A DNA stretch of 64,000 nt from an uncultured Flavobacteriales bacterium (lineage in GTDB: Bacteria; Bacteroidota; Bacteroidia; Flavobacteriales_D; Sanyastnellaceae): assembly GCA_905478325.1 (NCBI GenBank), contig CAJQIB010000026.1, positions 1 through 64,000 of the forward strand, given 5' to 3'. Positions 29,070 to 41,150 of this stretch are shown in pieces; the first letter of the stretch is position 1; every line of letters begins with the position of its first letter. Made by a program: the position numbers and the translations under genes. The notes under the pieces were generated by a model, which was given only the letters and a program-made list of their open reading frames with translations, searched no databases and was not told the origin of the DNA.

Positions 29070-32003
29070 ATGTGTTTCCATCCCATGACATCAGGGTGCT
29101 TCAACAATTTTCGACTGAACGAGTTGCGCAGCTGCGGACTTCTTTTTTTAGCGCTGGTCGTTTCTATAGCCACCCGTGCTCAAGTTGAAGACCCCTTTGA
29201 AGTGCGTTTCCAAACCCAAGAAAAGGGAGGCATCGCATTGCTGTCCAACATCAGTGTTTCCTGCAACTCGGGCTTCAATTGTTCGAACGCTCAAGCTTCG
29301 CTGCCCATGTCTGGAACGGGAGGAGACAACAACGATTTCAACATGACCTATGTTGATTTGGACAACGACCCGGATACCTGGATGTCAACTTCGGATAGTT
29401 TGAATTTGAGTGATTGTGGTGAAATCCTTTGGGCTGGGCTGTATTGGGCCAGCCGAATCACCACATTCACCCCCAATTACGCCCTCCGAAATCAACTCAA
29501 AATCCAGGCAAATACCGGAGGTTATGAGGATGTATCGGCAGATGAGTTGTATGATTTTGACGGGGGATATTTCAACGCCTACTTCTGTTTTAAGGACATG
29601 ACGGATTTCATTCAGTCGAATCCGGTGAACTCACGGTATGCCATCGCAAACATGGTGACGCGGGAAGACGACAGCAGCTGGGGAGGGTGGACCCTCGTTG
29701 TAGTGTACGCTGACGCTTTGCAGTCCATGAAGAACCTAACGGTCTTTGACGGCTTTGCCTTTATCAATTCGGGCAACAACCAAGTGGACATTGAAATCGA
29801 TGGGTTTGTGACACCGCCCAATGGTCCTGTGAATTTTGAATTGGGTGCCATCACTTATGATGGTGATCGCAATTCCTCCGGCGATCAGATGCTGTTCAAT
29901 GGAGCCGGCACCTTTGTTGAAATTGAAGACGCCTTGCATGAAGCCAACAATGTCTTCAACAGCACGCATTCCCGTGACGGTCAGATGACGCCTTATCGCC
30001 TTCCGGCGTATAACAACACGTTGGGCCATGACGCGAATGTTTTCATACCAGACAACACCGGAGGGCAGTTTTTAAGTAACAGCAGCACGCAAGCGACCAT
30101 TCGAGTCCTCACCGGAGAGGAGTCCATCATGCTTCAAACAGCGACATCAGCGATTGATGTATTCGAACCTGATTTGAAAGCGACGGTGTTCATTGAAGAT
30201 CTCAACGGAGGCATTGTGAGTCCCGGAGATGTTCTTGAATTTACGGTCGTGGGGAAAAACCTCGGATCGGATGTTTCTGTGGGCACGTTCATGACAGATT
30301 CTTTGGACCTCCGCGTGGACTATGTTCCCGGCTCATTGGTCATGTTGACGGGGCCTGACGCTGGAGCTCTGAGTGATGGTGCTGGTGATGACGCAGGAGA
30401 GTATGATGCCATCAACCATACCGTAACCGTCCGTGTTGGTACAGGAGCCACAGCAGCAATGGGGGGTGAGTTGGACAACAATCCAACCGGGCAGGATAGC
30501 ACGTCATTCAAATTTCAAGGAAGTTTGACCAACGATTGCATGATCCTGCAATGCAACGGCACATTGGATGGGGTGGCGTACATATTTGGTGCAGGAGATA
30601 TTTCGGGGAATTCCCTGGACAACGGCGGGTTGAGCAGCCTGGTGGATGCCAATGGCTGTCCGCTCGGAAGTGTGAATCAATTGGTTGTTGAGACGGGGAC
30701 CTGTCCGTCCGTGCAAGTGGTTCAGTCGTCAACCAGTTGTCTCGGTGAGGATGTAGCACTGTATGTACCGAGCTTTCAGAACAATCCCATTGCTGAATCG
30801 CTTGCACACTATGTGTGGAGCGGACCCAATGGGTATGCTTCGCTCAATTCGGTCGCTGAAATTGAAAATGTTTCTCCGATCGATAATGGCGTGTATTCGT
30901 TAGAATTGACGTTCGAAGGTCTGGAATGCATTTTGAATACAGCCGCTTGGACTTTAGAGGTGCATGACCCAAGTCCTTTGTTCGAAGCTCCTGTTTCTCA
31001 ATGCTTAGAAGGCAATTCCTTTGACTTTATTGCCGAAGGAGCAACTGAGACGACGGCTGTTTACACGTGGTCGATGTCCAATGCAGATCCGTCTGAGTCA
31101 ATTGGTCCAACGCCTTCCGACGTAGTTTTTGACAATGCCGGATGGCATGATGTTGCGCTCGTGTTGCAAGAAAACGGCTGTGAAAACACATTCATCGATT
31201 CTATTTGGATTGATGCGGCGCCGGTGTTGAGTCCTTTGGAGATCAGCTGGAGTCCGTCATCGGGATGCCCGCCGATTTTGGTTCACTTTGACGATAACAG
31301 CACCAACCCAGCGTTGTCTTATTCTTGGGAATTCGGTGATGGTGGATTCAGCTCAGATCCAGACCCAGTCCACGTATACGGTGAATTGGGTAGCTTCGAT
31401 GTTTCCGTCGTTGCGAGTTCGATGACGGCATGTGTTTCAGTAATCTCTGTGGATTTACCGGGAATCATTCAAACATATAGCGGGCCAGAGGGCGGGTTTT
31501 CTATTTCTCCTGTGGTCGTGGATATCTTGGATGGCGAGGTGTCTATTGTTTCCTTGGCTTCACCAACGTTGAATTGCACCTATCAGATGGCAGATGGTGG
31601 TTTCATCACAGGGCACGACGGCATGCATACTTTTTTGGAGTCCGGTGTTTTTCAGATTGTACAAACAGTGACGGATTCGGATGGTTGCAGCGCCACTACT
31701 TTGGGAGAAGTGACAGTAAATGGCACATTGTTTTACGCGCCAACGGCCTTTACGCCAGACCAAGATGGCTTGAACGATGTGTGGTTGCCGCAGGTAACAG
31801 GAGTGACCGACTATGCGTTGCAGATTTTTAATCGCTGGGGCGAAGAGGTATGGAGTACCCATGATCCCGAGCTTCCCTGGTTGGGGCAGTTTCAAAATGG
31901 AGGGCACTTTGCTCCCAATGGGGTGTACCATTGGACGGTGCGACTGGAAGACCAGTCGCGTTTCCCTCGGAGCTATCGTGGTAACGTGACCATGATGCGC
32001 TGA
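29070..32003 (+). CDS. T9SS type B surface protein with PKD domains (977 aa)
   Basis: The signal peptide lies in SCGLLFLALVVSIATRAQ. I keep the first ATG, but one at 29085 is equally plausible given the terminator just upstream. Residues ~40-330 form a beta-rich domain of the kind found in surface proteins with a LWAGLYWASRI block. A DUF11-like stalk segment follows (DVLEFTVVGKNLGSDVSVGTFMTDSLD). Ig/PKD-like segments come next, clearest in LSYSWEFGDGGFSSDPDPVHVYGELGSFDVSVVA. The tail (FYAPTAFTPDQDGLNDVWLP...IFNRWGEEVWST...FAPNGVYHWTVRLED...GNVTMMR) is the CHU_C domain that directs T9SS export. It is probably an adhesin. The structured-RNA candidate begins immediately beyond its end on the other strand. 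Confidence 0.88.
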   Translation: MCFHPMTSGCFNNFRLNELRSCGLLFLALVVSIATRAQVEDPFEVRFQTQEKGGIALLSNISVSCNSGFNCSNAQASLPMSGTGGDNNDFNMTYVDLDNDPDTWMSTSDSLNLSDCGEILWAGLYWASRITTFTPNYALRNQLKIQANTGGYEDVSADELYDFDGGYFNAYFCFKDMTDFIQSNPVNSRYAIANMVTREDDSSWGGWTLVVVYADALQSMKNLTVFDGFAFINSGNNQVDIEIDGFVTPPNGPVNFELGAITYDGDRNSSGDQMLFNGAGTFVEIEDALHEANNVFNSTHSRDGQMTPYRLPAYNNTLGHDANVFIPDNTGGQFLSNSSTQATIRVLTGEESIMLQTATSAIDVFEPDLKATVFIEDLNGGIVSPGDVLEFTVVGKNLGSDVSVGTFMTDSLDLRVDYVPGSLVMLTGPDAGALSDGAGDDAGEYDAINHTVTVRVGTGATAAMGGELDNNPTGQDSTSFKFQGSLTNDCMILQCNGTLDGVAYIFGAGDISGNSLDNGGLSSLVDANGCPLGSVNQLVVETGTCPSVQVVQSSTSCLGEDVALYVPSFQNNPIAESLAHYVWSGPNGYASLNSVAEIENVSPIDNGVYSLELTFEGLECILNTAAWTLEVHDPSPLFEAPVSQCLEGNSFDFIAEGATETTAVYTWSMSNADPSESIGPTPSDVVFDNAGWHDVALVLQENGCENTFIDSIWIDAAPVLSPLEISWSPSSGCPPILVHFDDNSTNPALSYSWEFGDGGFSSDPDPVHVYGELGSFDVSVVASSMTACVSVISVDLPGIIQTYSGPEGGFSISPVVVDILDGEVSIVSLASPTLNCTYQMADGGFITGHDGMHTFLESGVFQIVQTVTDSDGCSATTLGEVTVNGTLFYAPTAFTPDQDGLNDVWLPQVTGVTDYALQIFNRWGEEVWSTHDPELPWLGQFQNGGHFAPNGVYHWTVRLEDQSRFPRSYRGNVTMMR

Positions 32004-32013
32004 ATTGAGCGCT

Positions 32014-32040
32014 GCGGATGTCCTCCGTTTCTTTTCTTTT
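32014..32040 (+). terminator. Weak terminator after the 977-residue surface protein
   Basis: GCGGA pairs with TCCGT around TGTCC and is followed by a pyrimidine tract rich in T (TTCTTTTCTTTT). The stem is only five bases with one wobble. Confidence 0.4.
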
Positions 32041-32048
32041 GTGGAAAT

Positions 32049-32910
32049 TAAAAATCCGCATCCGATGCGCATTCGACTCAACTTGCGTCAATTCGTTTTT
32101 GCAATCAGATGCGGACTCTCCATAGACTCCCTTCATGGTGGTGGAGGGAATCACGCTTAGAGCGAGCTCCAAGCGTGCCTTTCCTTTCGGTCAGGCTTAA
32201 GGACCTCTGGAAGGAGATGTTGGACTTTGTTTTGCAACCACTTCATTGCTGAAGCTGCCTCTCGGCTCCATCCAACCCTCGCGCCTTTGGCTCATCTCCA
32301 TCTGCCCGAAGGCAGCGGGGATGTTGTTCTTAAAGCGTTTCCACTCTTCGAACTGACCAAATGACCACCGCATTTCAAGCACGAATGCTATCCTTGTGGT
32401 GTTGGTGTCACCTCACCGGCGGAGCTTCATCACCGAAGTGACTGGCTTTCTCATGCCTCAGGCAAGCCTGGAGGCCTTCCACGCAGCCAGCGCAGAATTT
32501 CACTCTCCTTGCGGAAAGTGTGTCGTTCACTTTTGCCGAAACATCAGCGAACGACTACGTCAGTATGCCTTTTCATCTTACCATCAGGACTTGCGTCCTT
32601 TTGGCACCCCTTTCGGAATGCGACCATTCTCAGGCCTCAAGATTTTCAGGTTGATCTGTCGACCCGCCTTTGCGAATCAACGTGCAACGATTTCCTTGAA
32701 TGAAATCCATCCTGCTCGGATTGATGACCTGGGCTTGCACCCAACATCGTCTTTCTTCGCACTTGGCTCGAATCCTTCCGCACCTTTTGTCTCTTTTCAG
32801 AGCTTCTTGGCAGGAACCCTTTTCAGGTGATCTGCAGTTTGGACAAGCCAATCTGCCTTTCGTTCCCCGAGCATTGCGATACAAACAAAGGGCAAAAAGG
32901 CATTGCTCTG
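32049..32910 (-). ncRNA. Large structured non-coding RNA candidate (~0.86 kb)
   Basis: No reading frame spans this region, yet the minus strand folds into a chain of compact hairpins. GNRA-capped ones are CTCT-GAAA-AGAG (32802-32791), TGGGT-GCAA-GCCCA (32743-32730), GCATTCC-GAAA-GGGGTGC (32621-32604), AGGAC-GCAA-GTCCT (32599-32586) and CACTTTCC-GCAA-GGAGAGTG (32520-32501). CTTCA-GCAA-TGAAG (32254-32241), ACC-GAAA-GG inside GCCT/AGGC (32196-32177) and the terminator's inner hairpin complete the set. UUCG-capped ones are TCAC/GTGA (32441-32430) and CTGCC/GGCAG (32315-32302). Other helices include GCAG.TTGG/CCAA.CTGC (32855-32834), GATTTC/GAAATC (32707-32689) and GTTGAT/ATCAAC (32681-32650). Further ones are a 9-base stem at 32555-32522, CTGGCT/AGCCAG (32490-32442), ACCAC/GTGGT enclosing GCATT/AATGC (32400-32364), an 11-base stem (32177-32152) and GATTCCCT/AGGGAGTC (32152-32125). 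The 3' end is set by the terminator; the 5' end is uncertain (GAGCA/TGCTC starts near 32908). The RNA family is unknown to me. Confidence 0.72.
32050..32115 (-). terminator. Intrinsic terminator closing the structured RNA
   Basis: On the minus strand TCCGCATC (32115-32108) pairs perfectly with GATGCGGA (32062-32055) and is followed directly by TTTTT (32054-32050). An inner hairpin, CGAATTGAC/GTTGAGTCG with one mismatch, is capped by a GCAA tetraloop at 32095-32074. On the plus strand no T tract follows, so the signal is directional and marks the RNA's 3' end. Confidence 0.7.
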
Positions 32911-33077
32911 ATTCTTCGAAGCAGGGAGTAAGACACACGGTATTCACAGAGGTTTTCAACAATTGTTCATAGCCTGAGCCTTTTCAACGCTACAGTGGTC
33001 GATTGAATGGGGGGATCTGTCGAAATCTCTAGCCAAAGACGAAACGTTCCCGTCCCAATCCCCGTAAATGCGAGGAC

Positions 33078-36000
33078 ATGATCGTTTCGAATCCATTGGG
33101 CAGACAATTATTGAGGACACTTGGCCTTTTTCTTGTTAGCCTTTATTTAAGCACATCGTTTGTTGCGGCCCAGAGCTGCAGTGCTGCTTGTGCTGCTTTG
33201 GATATCAGTTACAGTATTTCGAATGCTGACCAGTGCATCATCACATTCACCGCTGAACAAGCGGGAGATACGCCAGTAGGCTATGAATCGGATGTGCAGT
33301 GGACCTGGTCGTTAGATGGCATAGAATCCGCCACGAGCAATGCAATGACGTTGTCCTATGAAGCGACTCAAAGTAGTGAGGTCGTGACGCTAGAGGCAGG
33401 GCTGACGCCAATAGGAACTGAAGCGCCGTGCGTGTGTTCCTTGGACATCGATCTCGACGTGGCTTTGTTCGATTTCAATTGGCCTTGTTCATGTTTGCCC
33501 GGCGATGGTCCGGTTGCAGATTTTGATTTTACAGGGTTGGGTCAATGCGGCGGCGTGTTGTCCTTTGAAAATGCCTCTGCAGGTGCGGGTTTAGATTATG
33601 CGTGGACTTTTGGTGAAGACGGGAACTATGGGGTGTCGAGTGAATTCAATCCCATCGTGACGTTCAATATTCCTGGAGGCGGCGTTTCCCAGGTGCCTGT
33701 GACGTTATCGGTTGTCGACGAAAATGGCTGCACGGATACGTGGACCGAAGAAATTCCGGTGCTACAAACCCCGGACCCTTGGTTTGTCGAAGCTGAACCA
33801 ATCTGTACGAATAACGAAAGCTGGCCGATACCGTTTAGTTTGTTGAATTCCAATTCGAATTACTTTGAAGACAACGGTCTAACTCAGTTGACCATCGATT
33901 GGGGCAATGGGGACGTGGATGTGCTGACGGCAATGGAAATTCCGTTCACTACCGAATATTTTGGCTATGGTACATACACCATTTCGTTCACCGCATTGGG
34001 AACAAATGGATGTGCGTCAGTGGCACAAGATCAGTTGTTTGTCGGCAGCAACCCGGAGATAGAAACAGCAAGTCCGGGGATGACAGCAGGTCTGTGCGCT
34101 CCGGAATTGCTGGTTTTCCCCCTCACGAGCTATGAAAACAATGATCCCGCGACCGTGTATACGGTTGACTTTGGTGATGGTACGGCTGCTACATTCAATC
34201 ACCCACCGCCGTCGACTGTTGAGCATATTTATGCCTCTTCATCTTGCGGAGCCTCAGGCGAGTTCCCTGCAAATGCATTTCATTTTTCAATTGAGGCAAG
34301 CAATGAATGCCTCACGACAGCGACCAACGCGATCTTCATTGAAGTTTTGGAAGTTGTGCCGCCAACCCTTTCGGGGCCAGCGACTGTGTGCGTTGGGTCT
34401 ACAGGTGATTATCAAGTCTTCGGAGGATTTCAAAGCTTTACTGAGACCGGTTGTGAACTGTCCTCTCTATCGGGGAATTGGGAGGTCATTGCATTGCAAG
34501 GGCAAACACCGCCGGTACTGAACATGGCTTCAGGGTCCGAGTTTGAACCGACTTTCACGGAACCTGGACTCTACCAAATCGATTACGTGGATGACGCGTT
34601 GATTCAAGCTGCCGCACCGTGCGAATATGACGCAACAGCATCTTTGGAGGTGTGTGTCATGGCGTCTGTTGAACCCGAATGGTCATGGGAATCCACTTCG
34701 GTCTGCATTCCAATGGAAGTGCAGTTGTCCAATGACACCCCCGAACCTCCCTGCGGTGAATCCATCTTTTCATGGACGGTTCAAGGAGGGGCGTATGAAT
34801 GGGCTATTGGCAGTGGAGCCAACGACGAAAATCCCGAGTTGATTTTCTTGGAAGCTGCGAATTATACCGTCTCCCTTTCTGTCGCTTCTGGGCTGAACGG
34901 CGTGTGTGGTGCAGCGTCAAGCCAGGCGATTCTTGCAAGCACAGCAGCACCTGAGGTTTTTATCAACGCAGCATCAGACTCTCTGTGCGTAGGCGCAACC
35001 TGGAACGGGCAAGTGCTCATCAACCCTGGTAACACCGTGCTAACTGATTTTGGTTGGACGCTGGATGGGTTGGAAGTTGGTCCCACGTCTCCCGGCCCCT
35101 TGAACCAAGTCATCGAAACTGTGGGATTGCACACTGTCGAGGTTTCCGCATCCAACAGCTGTGGCACGGCCGTTCAGCAGTATGCTGTGTTTGCCGCTCC
35201 AATTCCGGAAATAACGTTCAATGCCCCTTATGCCTCATGCAATGGGTTTCCTGTTGAGATCACCGCTTCCGGTGGAAATTCTTATTTCTGGTCTGCTACT
35301 GAGCAAGCTTTGGATGATGGTTTCGATTCGGACTCGAGCGTTACGTACATCATGAATGGCTATTTACTCGGTTCGGTTGTCGGGACGCAGGCATATGGCT
35401 CGTTTTCCTGTTCATCAACAGAGAATTTCAGTGTTAATGCCTCTCCAGTGCCTTCTTTGGAGATTGTCGGGGAATCCATGATTTGCGATGGAGGAACGTT
35501 GGATTTGAATGCTTCGGTTTCTCTTTGGGGATCTTACTTTGTGAACTGGATTGGGCATGATACAGCTGTGGAGGGCAATGAATTCACACTTTCCATTGAT
35601 CCTGGCGAAGAGGGGCCGTTTGAAATCGAAGCGATTGTGACGTCCTATGGAGGCGGTTGCACGGACACAGCCTCGTGGACGGTTCACGTTCAACAACTTC
35701 CTGAAGTTGAAGCGGGAGCAGCCATCGAAGTGTGCAACCAATCGATTGAAGTGCTGTTGGATTCCGGTTTTCCTGCCGGAGGAACCTGGACGGGACCGGG
35801 AGTTGTTTCTCCTGAAGGTTTGTTCAACCCGGAGTTCTTGGAAGTGGGCGATTCTTCTTTGACGTATACCTATGCGGATGCCTTTGGGTGTGCGAGCGAA
35901 GACACATTGAACGTTGCTGTGGGATCACCTCAAGCCATCAATGTCGTGTCTGACAGCACAGTCTGTGAGTCCGAGGAGATGATCGGATTGGGGTCCCTGG

Positions 36001-39000
36001 CTTCTCCTGAAGGAGGGACATGGAGTGGTGAAGGTGTCTTTGGAGCCTTGTCCGATTCATTGAATATCAGTGTTCTTAGCGCTGGTTCGTATAATTTGGT
36101 TTATGCTTTAGGAGAGGGCACCTGTTATGTCACCGATACACTAGAACTCACCATTCTTGAATCACCTCAACTGTGGGTTCACCCCATTGGCGGATTGCCT
36201 TGCATGGGAGACTCATTGGAAATTGAGGCCCTGACAGTAGGTGGAGCAGGTGGAGGGTATGCATACAATTGGTCAACCAATGTGGATGTTTCATCCACGG
36301 ATTCTTCTCATGCCTTCTTATCCGTGGAAGCCATAACCGAGATCGTTTTAACGGTCACAGATAATATGGGTTGCAGCGTGACCGACGAGTTGATCATTCT
36401 ACCTTTTCCACAGCCGATTATTCTTATGCCAGAGAACTTTGAAGAATGCATGCAGGATATTGAGGTTTCATTGCCTGAAGTCAATCCAATAGGAGGCCTG
36501 TGGTCTGGACCGGGAGTCGTGGAGAGTGCAACAGGAATGTTCAACCCGTCTCTAGTCGGCTTGGGAACGACCATGTTGAACTACTCAGCGACCAATGTTT
36601 TCGGGTGTTCTCAAACGGACTCTGTGCAAGTTGAATTGATTGAAGTTGAATTAGCGGAAGCTGGAGAGGATATGTTCGTCTGTGAGACAGAGGGGGTAAT
36701 CACCCTTGAAGGGGCGTCGCCAGCAGGAGGGACGTGGTCTGGACCGGGCGTGATCGATTCCATAGCGGGTCTTGTCGATGTCGCTCAATTGTCATTTGGC
36801 ACAACGATTTTGACGTATTCAACGGGCTCAGGCTCTTGTTTGCATTCGGACAATCGCATCGTGCATGTTGTGGGGAATCCCGAAGTGGTCATCGTTTCGA
36901 GTGAAGCGGATAATCTTGCTTGCGCAGGTGATTCTGTGATTTGGACGGCTCAAGCTTTAGGTGGAAATGTCTCGAGTTCTTCAGATTACCAGTTTGATTG
37001 GACCGGATCGGCTACCCCGGATTTGGACAATCCCGCTCAGGCTTGGTGGATCGCCATCTCTCCAGAGACGATAGTGCAAGTGCTGGTCACGGATACCTTA
37101 GGCTGCCAAGTTGAAATCGCTCAATCAATAGCCGTCGAGTCGTTGCCGATTTTGGAGCTTCCTCAAAACATTCAAGAGTGCGCACAATCCATAGAAGTGT
37201 TGCTGCCTGCGGCGATTCCGCTTGGCGGAATGTGGTCAGGTCCAGGTGTTGTCGATGCATCGCTCGGACTTTTCAACCCCGGTTCTTTCGAAGCAGGGTT
37301 TTGGGAGTTGACCTATAGCTATACCAACGCATCGGGTTGCTCGGCCAACGCCGGCACCACGATTGAAATTATCGAACCTGAAACGGTCGTTGCAGGAGAT
37401 GATTTGGCGATTTGCGCGTCCGATGAGGTCATTCAATTGGGAGGGTTCTCTCCCGCGATTGGGGGAACTTGGAGTGGCACGGGAGTGCTCGATACCTCAA
37501 CGGGCTCGGTGGATATTGCCGAACTTACGCCAGCGACTTATGCATTGGTTTACCAAACAGGCTTGGGTTCTTGTGCTGTGGAAGACACGTTGAGTTTGAC
37601 GATCCTAGAAGTGCCCGAAGTCAATGGTATTTCAGCAGCTACGACTTGTTTGAATTCGGCTCTCGACGTTTCTTTGGAGGTTACGGGTGGAGAGGCACCT
37701 TATCTGGTGAACTGGTTGACCGCGGTCGACTCGGTTTCTGAAGATGGAATGAGCGCATCAGTACTTGCGGGTGATTCTGGCGAGGCATGGCTTGAGGCCG
37801 AACTGTCGGATCTGAATGGATGCATGGCCAGCGTGTCATGGACCTTCGAAGTCTTGGAGCTTCCGGTTGTTTATGCCGGCCCGGACCGGGTGTTTTGTGA
37901 TCAACCTGTATTGACTCAACTCACGGGCAATAGCCCGGAAATACTCGAAGGAGGACAAGGATCTTTTTACGGATTGGGAGCAGCTTTGCTTGCGGTTAGT
38001 GCGGACGGGGTGTTTGACCCCTCTGTGGCATCAGCAGGAACGTTTGAAGTCGTCTACGCCTTCGAAAATGCGGCGACTACTTGTACCCAAACGGATACGT
38101 TGATCGTCATCGTGAATACTCCGGATGCGTTCACAGCTGGACCTGATACGGTGGTATGTGCCAATGCAACGCTCGTGCAATTTGAGGGTTTTGATTCTTC
38201 TCTGGATGTGGTTTGGTCTGGCCAAACAGATGCAGCGAATGCAGCTCTGGTTGATGCCGTAAATGGAGTCGTAAATCCTCAATTGTTGTCAGTTGGAATA
38301 CATGTTTTTCAGGCTTCTACAGGAGTGGAAACGTGCCTAGTAACAGACGAGCGCTCCATCGAGATTCAACCTCTTCCTGTGATTGAAATCGCTTCTGATG
38401 AGTCTTTCTGCGCTTCCATGGGACTTGTAGAATTAAGTGGTCCCGCGCCGAATGGAGGCCTGTGGATTGGAGAAGGAGTTGAGGATCCACTCTTGGGTAT
38501 GTTTGACACAGATCAAACCCCCGGACCCTTTGAACTCGCTTACACCTTCACGGATGCGTTGACAGGCTGTTCCGATACAGTACCACATCAGGTTGTCATT
38601 CAGCCGTTGCCTATAGCACAAATTGAAGCTGCTGATGTAGCATGCAATACCGTGCCTTGGGCTGCGGCGTCTAGCTCCATAGATGCTTCAGAGACCACTT
38701 GGATGGTCAATGGATCACCGGTGGAAGATGATGCCCTCGAAATCCTGTTGACGGATGCTGGTTGGTCTATCGTTCAGTTGTTCGTGGCCAACGAGTGGGG
38801 ATGCGTCGACAGCGCTCTGATGGAAGTGGAGGTCGTTTCGGCTCCAGTCGCCTTGATGGAACCCTCTGTGCTGAGCGGTTGCGCTCCTTTGGACGTTGCC
38901 TTCGAAAATCAGTCAACGGCATCACGGGCCTCCTATGCTTGGTCGATCAATGGACAATTGTATGCAGACACAGTTCCGCCACTTCAGACATTCCAGCAAG

Positions 39001-41150
39001 GAGATGACGTCGTAAACTACGGTGCCCTTTTGACTGTAACCAACGCCTGCGGATCGAGCCAAGATTCCTCGGAGATTGCAGTATTGCCTCACCCTCAAAT
39101 GGCCATCGCAATGAGTGAAGACAGCGTATGCTCTCCCTATACCGCTGAATTTATCAATGCAAGTGTCGGAAACCCAGAGGTACTCAATTGGGATTTCGGC
39201 AATGGTCAATTGGGTTCCGGATGGAATCCTGAATGGCCAACCTATTCAGTCAATGATCTACCGGTGGCCTATGATGTGTCGCTTTTTGGCAGCAATGCTT
39301 GCGGTATCGATACAGCCACCACGGTCATCTGGGTGGAGCCCAATAGCACCGTGGCGATGTTTGACTTGAGCGCGGTATCTGGATGTGCTCCAATGGAGTT
39401 GACAGTTACGGACTTGAGTGTCGATGCGACACAGATGACATTTGACTTTGGCAATGGCCAAGTATCATCCGATTCAACTGCAACAGCCCTGTTTGAGGAT
39501 GAGGGCAGTTATCTCGTTACCCAATACATCTCCAATGGATGCTCGTACGATACGGCTTCCGTTGTCATTGAAGTGGTGGATGCCCCAGACTTTCAGTGGG
39601 TGGTTGATGCTACGACACTCTGTGCAGGCGAAATCGGTGTGTTTGGGATAGAATCCAACGACATGGGCTCGGTGCAATGGTCCTTTGGGGACGACAATAC
39701 CGCCACCGGTCCGGAGGCCACACATGCGTGGGAGGCCACGGGTACGCATTGGGTTTATGTCGAGTTGGGTACGGCTTTGATGGCCTGTAGCCATGTGGAT
39801 AGCTTAGAAATGACGGTGCATCCAACCCCGGAATTGGAGGTGACAGCATCGGATTTAGAGGGTTGCTCTCCCTTGACGGTAGCATTCACCAATACGACTG
39901 TGGATGCCGCTGTGTGGTTGTGGGACTTTGCCGATTCTAGCGCAAGTTCAGACGTCGCTTCCCCAGACCATATGTTCACCAATGAAGGCTTGGACGTGGT
40001 CCATTTCGACGTGCTTGTAGAGGGAGAATCGTCTGAATCTTGCGTGGCTTCTGAAGTCATTCAGATCACGGTTTTACCGCTGCCACTTGTGGAGTTCGCA
40101 TTGGATGCCAATAGCGCATGTGGAAACCCGGCTCAAGTACAAACGTTGAATTCATCCCAGGAGGCGATCAATTTCGCTTGGTCATTGGATGGCAATATCG
40201 GTAGTAGCATGTTTGCGCCTAACCTCGAAGTGGCAGGAGTTGGGGTACACACCATACAGCTCGCTGCGAGCAATGCTTACGGGTGTGAATCTATGATGGA
40301 ACAGACTTTTGAAGTGTATGCCAATCCATTGCCAGCGCTTGCTGTTGATCCTGATGCAGGATGCCAGCCTTTGATGCTTTGGCTGAATGATCAAAGTACG
40401 GGAGCGGTGACTTCGACACTTCATATTGACCTTGACGGTCTCACCGTGTATTCAGGTCAAGTCCCTACGGAGGAGATTGCGTTGACAGAAGTTGGTGTTC
40501 ACACATTGACCTTGGAAGTGGTTTCCAGTGAAGGGTGCGTGCAGACGATGGCCATTCCTCAGACGGTGGAGGTTTGGCCCACGCCCGACGTGGACTTCTC
40601 AACAGACCCCTATGCTGGAACCGCGTCGGAACCGCATCCCTTGAATTCAACATGGAATTTTGAAAATGAGACAGAGACGGGGACAGCGAGTTTCTGGGAA
40701 TTTGGGGATGGAGCGAGTTCATCACAATGGAATGCATCGCACTCTTACGATGTTGCGGGGACGTACCCTGTGACTCTAACCGTCTACAATGAATTTGGTT
40801 GTTTCCAGGAGCTCACCCAATCGGTAGAGATTCTTGAGAATTTGCAAGTCTTCATTCCCAATGCGTTCACGCCTCCATCAGGGGGGTACTCCGATGGGGT
40901 CAATGACGGATGGCGTCCGGAGGTTTCAGACGTTTCTTTGATTGATCAATACGATTTAAAGGTGTTCAACCGATGGGGACAGTTGGTATGGCAAACACAG
41001 GATCCTGAGGCATATTGGCTCGGATCGGCACAGCCCAATGGCAGTTACTTTGCGGGAGATGATGTGTACACTTGGGTGCTGCAAATCAAGTCCAACACAT
41101 TGGTGGGCTTTTCAAGAGAATGGAAGGGGCATGTGACCCTGTTCCGTTGA
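33078..41150 (+). CDS. Giant T9SS type B adhesin (2690 aa)
   Basis: A signal peptide (LGLFLVSLYLSTSFVAAQ) is followed by a Cys-rich segment and several Ig/PKD-like domains (DFTGLGQCGGVLSFENASAGAGLDYAWTFGEDG). From about residue 885 come ~200-residue paired repeats carrying GGxWSGPGV...G.FNP....G......Y....GC. More than ten PKD-like domains then occupy the C-terminal half (motifs such as VLNWDFGNGQLG, VQWSFGDDN, VWLWDFADSSAS and ASFWEFGDGASSSQWNASHSYDVAGTYPVTLTV). The protein ends with CHU_C (IPNAFTPPSGGYSDGVNDGW...VFNRWGQLVWQT...GHVTLFR). It resembles SprB-type gliding adhesins in design. The ATG at 33078 precedes the signal peptide naturally. The adjacent plus-strand protein at 29070 has a related architecture. 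Confidence 0.9.
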   Translation: MIVSNPLGRQLLRTLGLFLVSLYLSTSFVAAQSCSAACAALDISYSISNADQCIITFTAEQAGDTPVGYESDVQWTWSLDGIESATSNAMTLSYEATQSSEVVTLEAGLTPIGTEAPCVCSLDIDLDVALFDFNWPCSCLPGDGPVADFDFTGLGQCGGVLSFENASAGAGLDYAWTFGEDGNYGVSSEFNPIVTFNIPGGGVSQVPVTLSVVDENGCTDTWTEEIPVLQTPDPWFVEAEPICTNNESWPIPFSLLNSNSNYFEDNGLTQLTIDWGNGDVDVLTAMEIPFTTEYFGYGTYTISFTALGTNGCASVAQDQLFVGSNPEIETASPGMTAGLCAPELLVFPLTSYENNDPATVYTVDFGDGTAATFNHPPPSTVEHIYASSSCGASGEFPANAFHFSIEASNECLTTATNAIFIEVLEVVPPTLSGPATVCVGSTGDYQVFGGFQSFTETGCELSSLSGNWEVIALQGQTPPVLNMASGSEFEPTFTEPGLYQIDYVDDALIQAAAPCEYDATASLEVCVMASVEPEWSWESTSVCIPMEVQLSNDTPEPPCGESIFSWTVQGGAYEWAIGSGANDENPELIFLEAANYTVSLSVASGLNGVCGAASSQAILASTAAPEVFINAASDSLCVGATWNGQVLINPGNTVLTDFGWTLDGLEVGPTSPGPLNQVIETVGLHTVEVSASNSCGTAVQQYAVFAAPIPEITFNAPYASCNGFPVEITASGGNSYFWSATEQALDDGFDSDSSVTYIMNGYLLGSVVGTQAYGSFSCSSTENFSVNASPVPSLEIVGESMICDGGTLDLNASVSLWGSYFVNWIGHDTAVEGNEFTLSIDPGEEGPFEIEAIVTSYGGGCTDTASWTVHVQQLPEVEAGAAIEVCNQSIEVLLDSGFPAGGTWTGPGVVSPEGLFNPEFLEVGDSSLTYTYADAFGCASEDTLNVAVGSPQAINVVSDSTVCESEEMIGLGSLASPEGGTWSGEGVFGALSDSLNISVLSAGSYNLVYALGEGTCYVTDTLELTILESPQLWVHPIGGLPCMGDSLEIEALTVGGAGGGYAYNWSTNVDVSSTDSSHAFLSVEAITEIVLTVTDNMGCSVTDELIILPFPQPIILMPENFEECMQDIEVSLPEVNPIGGLWSGPGVVESATGMFNPSLVGLGTTMLNYSATNVFGCSQTDSVQVELIEVELAEAGEDMFVCETEGVITLEGASPAGGTWSGPGVIDSIAGLVDVAQLSFGTTILTYSTGSGSCLHSDNRIVHVVGNPEVVIVSSEADNLACAGDSVIWTAQALGGNVSSSSDYQFDWTGSATPDLDNPAQAWWIAISPETIVQVLVTDTLGCQVEIAQSIAVESLPILELPQNIQECAQSIEVLLPAAIPLGGMWSGPGVVDASLGLFNPGSFEAGFWELTYSYTNASGCSANAGTTIEIIEPETVVAGDDLAICASDEVIQLGGFSPAIGGTWSGTGVLDTSTGSVDIAELTPATYALVYQTGLGSCAVEDTLSLTILEVPEVNGISAATTCLNSALDVSLEVTGGEAPYLVNWLTAVDSVSEDGMSASVLAGDSGEAWLEAELSDLNGCMASVSWTFEVLELPVVYAGPDRVFCDQPVLTQLTGNSPEILEGGQGSFYGLGAALLAVSADGVFDPSVASAGTFEVVYAFENAATTCTQTDTLIVIVNTPDAFTAGPDTVVCANATLVQFEGFDSSLDVVWSGQTDAANAALVDAVNGVVNPQLLSVGIHVFQASTGVETCLVTDERSIEIQPLPVIEIASDESFCASMGLVELSGPAPNGGLWIGEGVEDPLLGMFDTDQTPGPFELAYTFTDALTGCSDTVPHQVVIQPLPIAQIEAADVACNTVPWAAASSSIDASETTWMVNGSPVEDDALEILLTDAGWSIVQLFVANEWGCVDSALMEVEVVSAPVALMEPSVLSGCAPLDVAFENQSTASRASYAWSINGQLYADTVPPLQTFQQGDDVVNYGALLTVTNACGSSQDSSEIAVLPHPQMAIAMSEDSVCSPYTAEFINASVGNPEVLNWDFGNGQLGSGWNPEWPTYSVNDLPVAYDVSLFGSNACGIDTATTVIWVEPNSTVAMFDLSAVSGCAPMELTVTDLSVDATQMTFDFGNGQVSSDSTATALFEDEGSYLVTQYISNGCSYDTASVVIEVVDAPDFQWVVDATTLCAGEIGVFGIESNDMGSVQWSFGDDNTATGPEATHAWEATGTHWVYVELGTALMACSHVDSLEMTVHPTPELEVTASDLEGCSPLTVAFTNTTVDAAVWLWDFADSSASSDVASPDHMFTNEGLDVVHFDVLVEGESSESCVASEVIQITVLPLPLVEFALDANSACGNPAQVQTLNSSQEAINFAWSLDGNIGSSMFAPNLEVAGVGVHTIQLAASNAYGCESMMEQTFEVYANPLPALAVDPDAGCQPLMLWLNDQSTGAVTSTLHIDLDGLTVYSGQVPTEEIALTEVGVHTLTLEVVSSEGCVQTMAIPQTVEVWPTPDVDFSTDPYAGTASEPHPLNSTWNFENETETGTASFWEFGDGASSSQWNASHSYDVAGTYPVTLTVYNEFGCFQELTQSVEILENLQVFIPNAFTPPSGGYSDGVNDGWRPEVSDVSLIDQYDLKVFNRWGQLVWQTQDPEAYWLGSAQPNGSYFAGDDVYTWVLQIKSNTLVGFSREWKGHVTLFR
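35730..37590 (+). repeat. Paired GGxWSGPGV repeats within the giant adhesin
   Basis: At least six repeats share GG.W(S/T)G(P/E/T)GV followed by ...G.FNP or G.VD..., then a strand ending in Y and GC/SC. Alternate copies begin with an ECxQxIEVxLP-type block or a VCExExxIxL-type block, so the true unit is a pair of about 195 residues. Examples are CNQSIEVLLDSGFPAGGTW, ECMQDIEVSLPEVNPIGG and ECAQSIEVLLPAAIPLGG. Boundaries are approximate. Confidence 0.75.

Follow-up and report, generated by a model that had tools for sequence, protein, structure and literature searches.

Few large, complex bacterial RNAs are known beyond ribosomes, RNase P and self-splicing introns, and their functions are poorly understood (PMC12286853). 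OLE RNA (Ornate, Large, Extremophilic) is about 600 nt long and has an extensive conserved secondary structure; its biochemical function is still not settled (PMC9723947, PMC12286853). GOLLD and ROOL, of about 0.6-0.8 kb or more, are ornate RNAs that form nanocages and are often found near tRNA islands (PMC12286853). All three form RNA oligomers (PMC12286853; for OLE also PMC9723947). The raiA motif, or ModT RNA, is reported to be a conserved structured bacterial RNA with a complex fold that is linked to growth (PMC11706538).

The RNA described here is encoded in the window, by which we mean the whole 64,000-nucleotide stretch of DNA analysed, from an uncultured Flavobacteriales bacterium. It very probably represents a new class of large structured non-coding RNA, whose gene stands by itself on the chromosome, in a single copy, in one Flavobacteriales family. 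In style it comes closest to OLE, GOLLD and ROOL. It resembles OLE in size class and in its extensive conserved secondary structure, but OLE comes from Bacillota and the window RNA from Flavobacteriales, and the OLE covariance model did not match the window at the gathering cut-off or at E up to 10. With GOLLD and ROOL, the predicted window RNA shares size and an ornate fold, and one of its subfamilies (C, see below) also lies near a tRNA gene. GOLLD and ROOL are carried by phages and prophages, whereas this RNA is found among chromosomal genes, once per genome, and had no homologue in phages or plasmids; the GOLLD and ROOL models matched neither the window nor its homologues. Since there was no sequence-model match to OLE, GOLLD or ROOL, and the location is not a phage, we treat the RNA as a new class and not as a member of one of these. 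It has a conserved complex fold in common with the raiA motif, which belongs to other phyla, gave no Rfam match here and is much shorter than the window RNA. The RNA is new as a class; the loose category of 'large ornate RNA' is already known. Our search of the open-access literature found no description of it, although a subscription paper or preprint could exist.

The intergenic gap at 32004-33077 (1.07 kb) separates two plus-strand adhesin genes (29070-32003 and 33078-41150), whose products are long PKD-domain proteins that carry CHU_C type IX secretion signals. The predicted RNA gene in this gap is equipped with an upstream element, a promoter-like motif and a terminator of its own. Its features are as follows, with subfamilies A and C as defined below.

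32934 to 32967, minus strand: three-box element AACAATTGTTGAAAACCTCTGTGAATACCGTGTG, with DnaA-box-like repeats, from a pattern search.
32882 to 32892, minus strand: putative Bacteroidota -7 promoter element ending in TTTG (CCCTTTGTTTG).
32044 to 32881, minus strand: large structured RNA, a predicted transcript of about 838 nt, with its start set by the promoter-like motif and its end by the terminator.
32234 to 32877, minus strand: domain closed in the consensus fold by long-range pairing of 5' GCAAU (32877-32873) with GUUGC (32238-32234).
32658 to 32681, minus strand: hairpin 1, with a 10-bp stem, an AAAG loop and a C-G closing pair, from comparison across two genera.
32622 to 32636, minus strand: signature T-loop-like hairpin GGCC-UGAGAAU-GGUC, from loop conservation and stem covariation.
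32604 to 32621, minus strand: GNRA hairpin GCAUUCC-GAAA-GGGGUGC, from the hairpin count and comparison of A with C.
32586 to 32599, minus strand: GNRA hairpin AGGAC-GCAA-GUCCU, from the hairpin count and the A alignment.
32501 to 32520, minus strand: GNRA hairpin CACUUUCC-GCAA-GGAGAGUG, from the hairpin count and comparison with G013.
32332 to 32347, minus strand: GNRA hairpin AGAGUG-GAAA-CGCUUU, in which pairs 545-556 and 546-555 covary.
32302 to 32315, minus strand: UNCG hairpin CUGCC-UUCG-GGCAG, from the hairpin count; not conserved in G013.
32240 to 32255, minus strand: GNRA hairpin GCUUCA-GCAA-UGAAGU, in which pairs 637-648 and 640-645 covary.
32044 to 32118, minus strand: 3' terminal stem GAGUCCGCAUC...GAUGCGGAUUUUU, then a U-rich run (terminator), from a terminator scan.
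32078 to 32091, minus strand: internal GCAA hairpin within the 3' terminal stem.

The minus strand of 32044-32881 is unusually rich in capped hairpins, counted as stems of at least 4 bp with a GNRA or UNCG loop. It contains 12 (three GAAA, five GCAA, three UUCG and one overlapping GUGA loop) compared to 2 on the plus strand. Dinucleotide shuffles (n = 300) contained a mean of 1.12 and a maximum of 6, and of 302 tiles of that size across the window not one reached 12. The folding z-score (minimum free energy against shuffles) was -6.3 for the minus strand and -3.0 for the plus strand. The first-pass annotation, which was made from the letters of the window, had listed five GCAA and three GAAA loops, and these were reproduced exactly. 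Its strand bias was also recovered, the G-U wobble stems that it quoted are present, and its directional terminator corresponds to a terminal hairpin with a T-run. It had counted two UUCG loops; such loops are present, but there are three. The minus-strand RNA that it placed at 32049-32910 held up, but with best bounds of 32044-32881, and the upstream element at 32934-32967 falls just beyond its end coordinate.

The 3' end of the RNA was placed in the T-rich run of the terminal hairpin by a terminator scan. The start probably lies directly after the TTTG-type motif, just before a conserved GCAATG, and such a motif stands directly ahead of the conserved start in each of subfamilies A, B and C. 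The main sigma-factor consensus is TAnnTTTG (PMC9723704), which the promoter-like motif at 32882-32892 matches only partially.

A nucleotide search found four relatives in the same genus, G018 (97%), G014 (95%), G011 (85%) and G013 (71%), which together with the window RNA form subfamily A. Shared motifs led to subfamily B, also in the genus of the window (G002, G006, G008, G009, G010 and G020), to subfamily C in genus g21, and to subfamily D, the homologues of genus g20. In subfamily C the RNA is flanked on one side by a tRNA gene and on the other by a gene whose product has an AprA-type methyltransferase domain. In subfamily B, at least the copies of G006, G009 and G020 lie beside a gene for DNA photolyase. 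The neighbouring genes differ among the four subfamilies, and the flanks examined are ordinary chromosomal genes. Relatives therefore do occur in Flavobacteriales genomes, where the first-pass annotation had proposed to look for them. In G018 and G011, the gene that corresponds to the second flanking gene seems to be shortened near the RNA.

Two covariance models were used to follow the distribution of the RNA. R1, for which only subfamilies A and C were used, recovered both at E 1e-8 or better and reached B and D only weakly. R2, built from 25 sequences of all four subfamilies, gave one strong match (E <1e-3) per genome in 41 of the 114 genomes of one Flavobacteriales family, in three genera (13 of 22 genomes in g1, 17 of 17 in g20 and 11 of 14 in g21); the sequences used for model building match by construction, so that independent support comes from the other genomes and from the almost complete lack of second copies. 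A second, partial match was present in G095. The core was matched in 17 of 50 high-quality family genomes, and 9 of the 22 genus genomes had no strong match. The RNA is therefore absent or diverged in some genomes, bearing in mind that the family genomes are mostly incomplete and a missing match is not proof of absence.

Outside the family, a class-wide search with R2 gave only matches that we judged to be due to chance, none with the upstream element, and several of them fell in apparently coding sequence. An order-wide search with R1 gave a single borderline match (G378), which we judged false, with no element at the expected place. A pattern scan of genome contigs gave 38 matches, among which R1 strongly confirmed only Flavobacteriales/Bacteroidetes MAGs; the named records confirmed by the model are MAGs of uncultured Flavobacteriales, Bacteroidetes or Crocinitomicaceae. 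No real homologue was found in 50,697 phage records, plasmids or IMG/VR, and two pattern matches in IMG/VR had no core-model match.

Compensatory changes were abundant in the alignments. In subfamily D (16 sister-genus sequences, mean column identity 59%), the consensus structure had 128 pairs, 90 of them with at least one compensatory change, and 91.3% of cells were paired. The covariation score was 0.467, compared to 0.208 ± 0.008 for shuffled alignments (0 of 500 as high) and at most 0.109 when partners were slid by 1-3 columns; as the structure was predicted from the same alignment, this score is favoured somewhat, but the margin is very large. The core of A and C (9 sequences) had 8 of 19 pairs changed on both sides and a score of 0.415 compared to 0.260, and the 25-sequence core scored 0.575 compared to 0.210. 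The alignment of subfamily A that includes the window RNA had 266 consensus pairs, 45 of them with double changes. Against column-shuffled alignments (12 shuffles per alignment), folding z-scores were -24.9 for A, -15.5 for C, -8.1 for B and -16.6 for D. The reverse complement scored more weakly in A (-8.1), B and C. In D it was as good as the forward strand (-21.3 compared to -16.6), and the strand in this subfamily is therefore assigned from the loops, the upstream element and the terminator. These comparisons show that the predicted RNA fold is under selection: the sequences differ widely among dozens of related species while the predicted fold stays. Covariation, which the first-pass annotation had named as the support to look for, is strong by pair counting against both shuffled and slid controls.

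Among the individual hairpins, hairpin 1 had compensatory changes in 7 of 10 pairs (9 sequences, two genera), and AGGAC-GCAA-GUCCU in 3 of 5 pairs within subfamily A. The five inner pairs of GCAUUCC-GAAA-GGGGUGC were paired in 100% of cells across A and C. In the G013 homologue, UUCG replaces GCAA on the invariant stem of the hairpin at 32501-32520, a tetraloop exchange. The long-range closing pairs (alignment A5, columns 6-10 with 652-656) hardly vary, so that covariation support for them is weak.

Across the aligned subfamilies, the conserved core consists of the T-loop-like hairpin and the AAAG hairpin, plus the terminal stem in three of the four. The UGARAAU loop of the T-loop-like hairpin was found in nearly all homologues examined. 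Its stem covaries, with double changes in 4 of 5 pairs (25 sequences), and its variants are all paired (CAUCC/GGAUG, CACCC/GGGUG, CGCGUC/GACGCG, GUGCGUUC/GAGCGCAU and others). A UGARAAU heptaloop with a C-G closing pair fits the U-N-N-R-A-N-N pattern of T-loops in tRNA and the TPP riboswitch, and, judging by this pattern, the loop may fold as a T-loop. A hairpin with an AAAG or similar loop lies directly 5' of it in the homologues. The terminal stem, UCCGCA...UGCGGAUUU with a U-rich sequence after it, hardly changes among A, C and D; in the 16 sister-genus sequences, 7 of its 11 pairs were invariant. Subfamily B has an analogous stem of different sequence. The distance from the upstream element to the terminator ranges from about 670 to 1110 nt, which gives an RNA length of about 0.57-1.0 kb across homologues.

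The upstream element (ACAATTGTNNANANNNNNTGTNNNTNNNNTGT) lies about 55-85 nt before the predicted RNA start, with its boxes at a fixed spacing of 13 and 11 bp. The three-box pattern, with at most one mismatch, was present in 52 of the 114 family genomes, nearly always once, compared to 0 of 114 for a reversed control. It also occurs in some other Flavobacteriales families, and in two other Flavobacteriales genomes it stands immediately ahead of a dnaB gene. Some of the boxes equal or resemble DnaA boxes, with an exact TGTGGATAA in G099, and the three boxes may be DnaA boxes.

Several other explanations of the locus were considered. DnaA-box-like repeats that occur about once per genome, one of them exact in G099, next to a hairpin-rich region could mark a replication origin (oriC), with the hairpins acting as DNA. 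However, GC skew had no sign change at the locus, either in the window or over 380 kb of G083, and the locus is therefore very unlikely to be the origin. No flip was seen in G107 or G069, in both of which the skew is noisy. Compensatory changes running through about 800 nt, GNRA/UNCG loops that lie nearly all on one strand of the window, the presence of a terminator, and the same boxes directly before dnaB in other genomes also argue against an origin. The hairpins could alternatively have arisen by chance in a decayed protein gene or insertion remnant, and a 144-aa open frame does run along the plus strand at 32396-32830. This frame has stops in G018, G014, G011 and G013, however, differences fall about equally on the three codon positions (17/27/24 and 50/51/56) with no third-position bias, and the pairs covary strongly. 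The coding reading was rejected on these grounds, and the probability left to a decayed gene is negligible. The RNA reading of the first-pass annotation agrees with this lack of a conserved protein frame.

The locus could also be a riboswitch-like cis element, or a long 5' leader, of an adjacent gene. In keeping with this, the upstream element precedes short non-coding segments ahead of queE-like genes in some genera, and in other families it stands before other RNAs that are followed by phoH. In the window, however, both flanking genes are on the opposite strand, and a terminator closes the RNA. The change of neighbours from one subfamily to the next (A, B, C and D) is also evidence against a leader that acts in cis, to which we give a very small chance. 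The size, the many GNRA loops and the complex multibranched fold would also suit a known large RNA class (OLE, GOLLD, ROOL, group I/II intron or RNase P) that has diverged too far for Rfam, and the tRNA gene next to subfamily C recalls the tRNA islands of GOLLD and ROOL (PMC12286853). This too is very improbable: when the window and about 30 homologous loci were searched against Rfam 15, both at the gathering cut-off and at relaxed E-values (up to 10 for the window and up to 0.5-2 for diverse homologues), only chance matches appeared besides a neighbouring tRNA, and there was no phage or plasmid homologue. RNase P RNA (bacterial type A) was rejected, as that of the genome is encoded elsewhere (G000:C22:66713-67056, E 9e-64). 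Group I and group II introns were also rejected, with no match to an Rfam intron model and an intergenic site. The first-pass annotation had recognised no known family and raised the possibility of a new class; the Rfam result bears out the former, and together with the homologues, the covariation and the frame decay it supports the latter.

How might a freestanding RNA gene of this kind work? Because gene context is not kept among subfamilies, the RNA would most likely act in trans. We tentatively propose, at somewhat below an even chance, that T-loop and GNRA tertiary contacts would give it a compact fold and that it would act as a structural scaffold, either by itself as an oligomer or together with protein. 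A ribozyme is an improbable alternative function. It is possible, if doubtful, that the three DnaA-box-like repeats tie transcription of the RNA to a regulator linked to replication or growth, for instance DnaA. A broader reading, which we consider rather unlikely, is that Flavobacteriales have an order-wide single-copy locus, with a DnaA-box-like three-box promoter element and fast-evolving large RNAs, whose transcript would be a large RNA-based particle produced in step with the replication or growth cycle. Under that reading, the 0.8-kb RNA of the window would be one lineage's version. A chromosomal, once-per-genome class in marine Flavobacteriales would be a new target for structural and functional work, and its conserved upstream element points to a connection with a replication or growth regulator that can be tested.

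The three-box element was also seen in other contexts. In L235 and L236 (family f9) it lies directly upstream of dnaB, without room for an RNA, a placement that suggests a replication-linked regulator of the element. In L230-L232 (genus g42, family f3) it is followed, about 80-520 nt downstream, by a different RNA candidate of about 430 nt, which begins with GAGAGAU and carries CUAACUGUAGUU before its terminator. This candidate had an alignment-shuffle z of -9.4, compared to -4.1 on the reverse complement, and no Rfam match. In L228, L229 and L234 (families f4 and f8) about 500-600 nt of non-coding sequence, including a terminator-like hairpin, separate the element from a downstream PhoH/PIN gene (gene identity tested for L229), as if another RNA of the same locus type were encoded there. 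A short non-coding stretch followed by a queE-like radical SAM gene comes after the element in L106, L107, L110 and L115 (genera g4, g5, g10 and g17), three of which have the motif CCAUCYAUGUCCAYG in common. G089 has the element on two contigs (G089:C24 and G089:C30) in slightly different sequences, perhaps from a second copy or a mixed bin. Finally, L111-L114 (genus g12) have, after the element, about 400 nt of conserved sequence that contains GUUGACCCUCUAUUUUGGUUGAUAUGGACAAC and ends in a GGAUUUUUUAU-type terminator similar to that of the window RNA.
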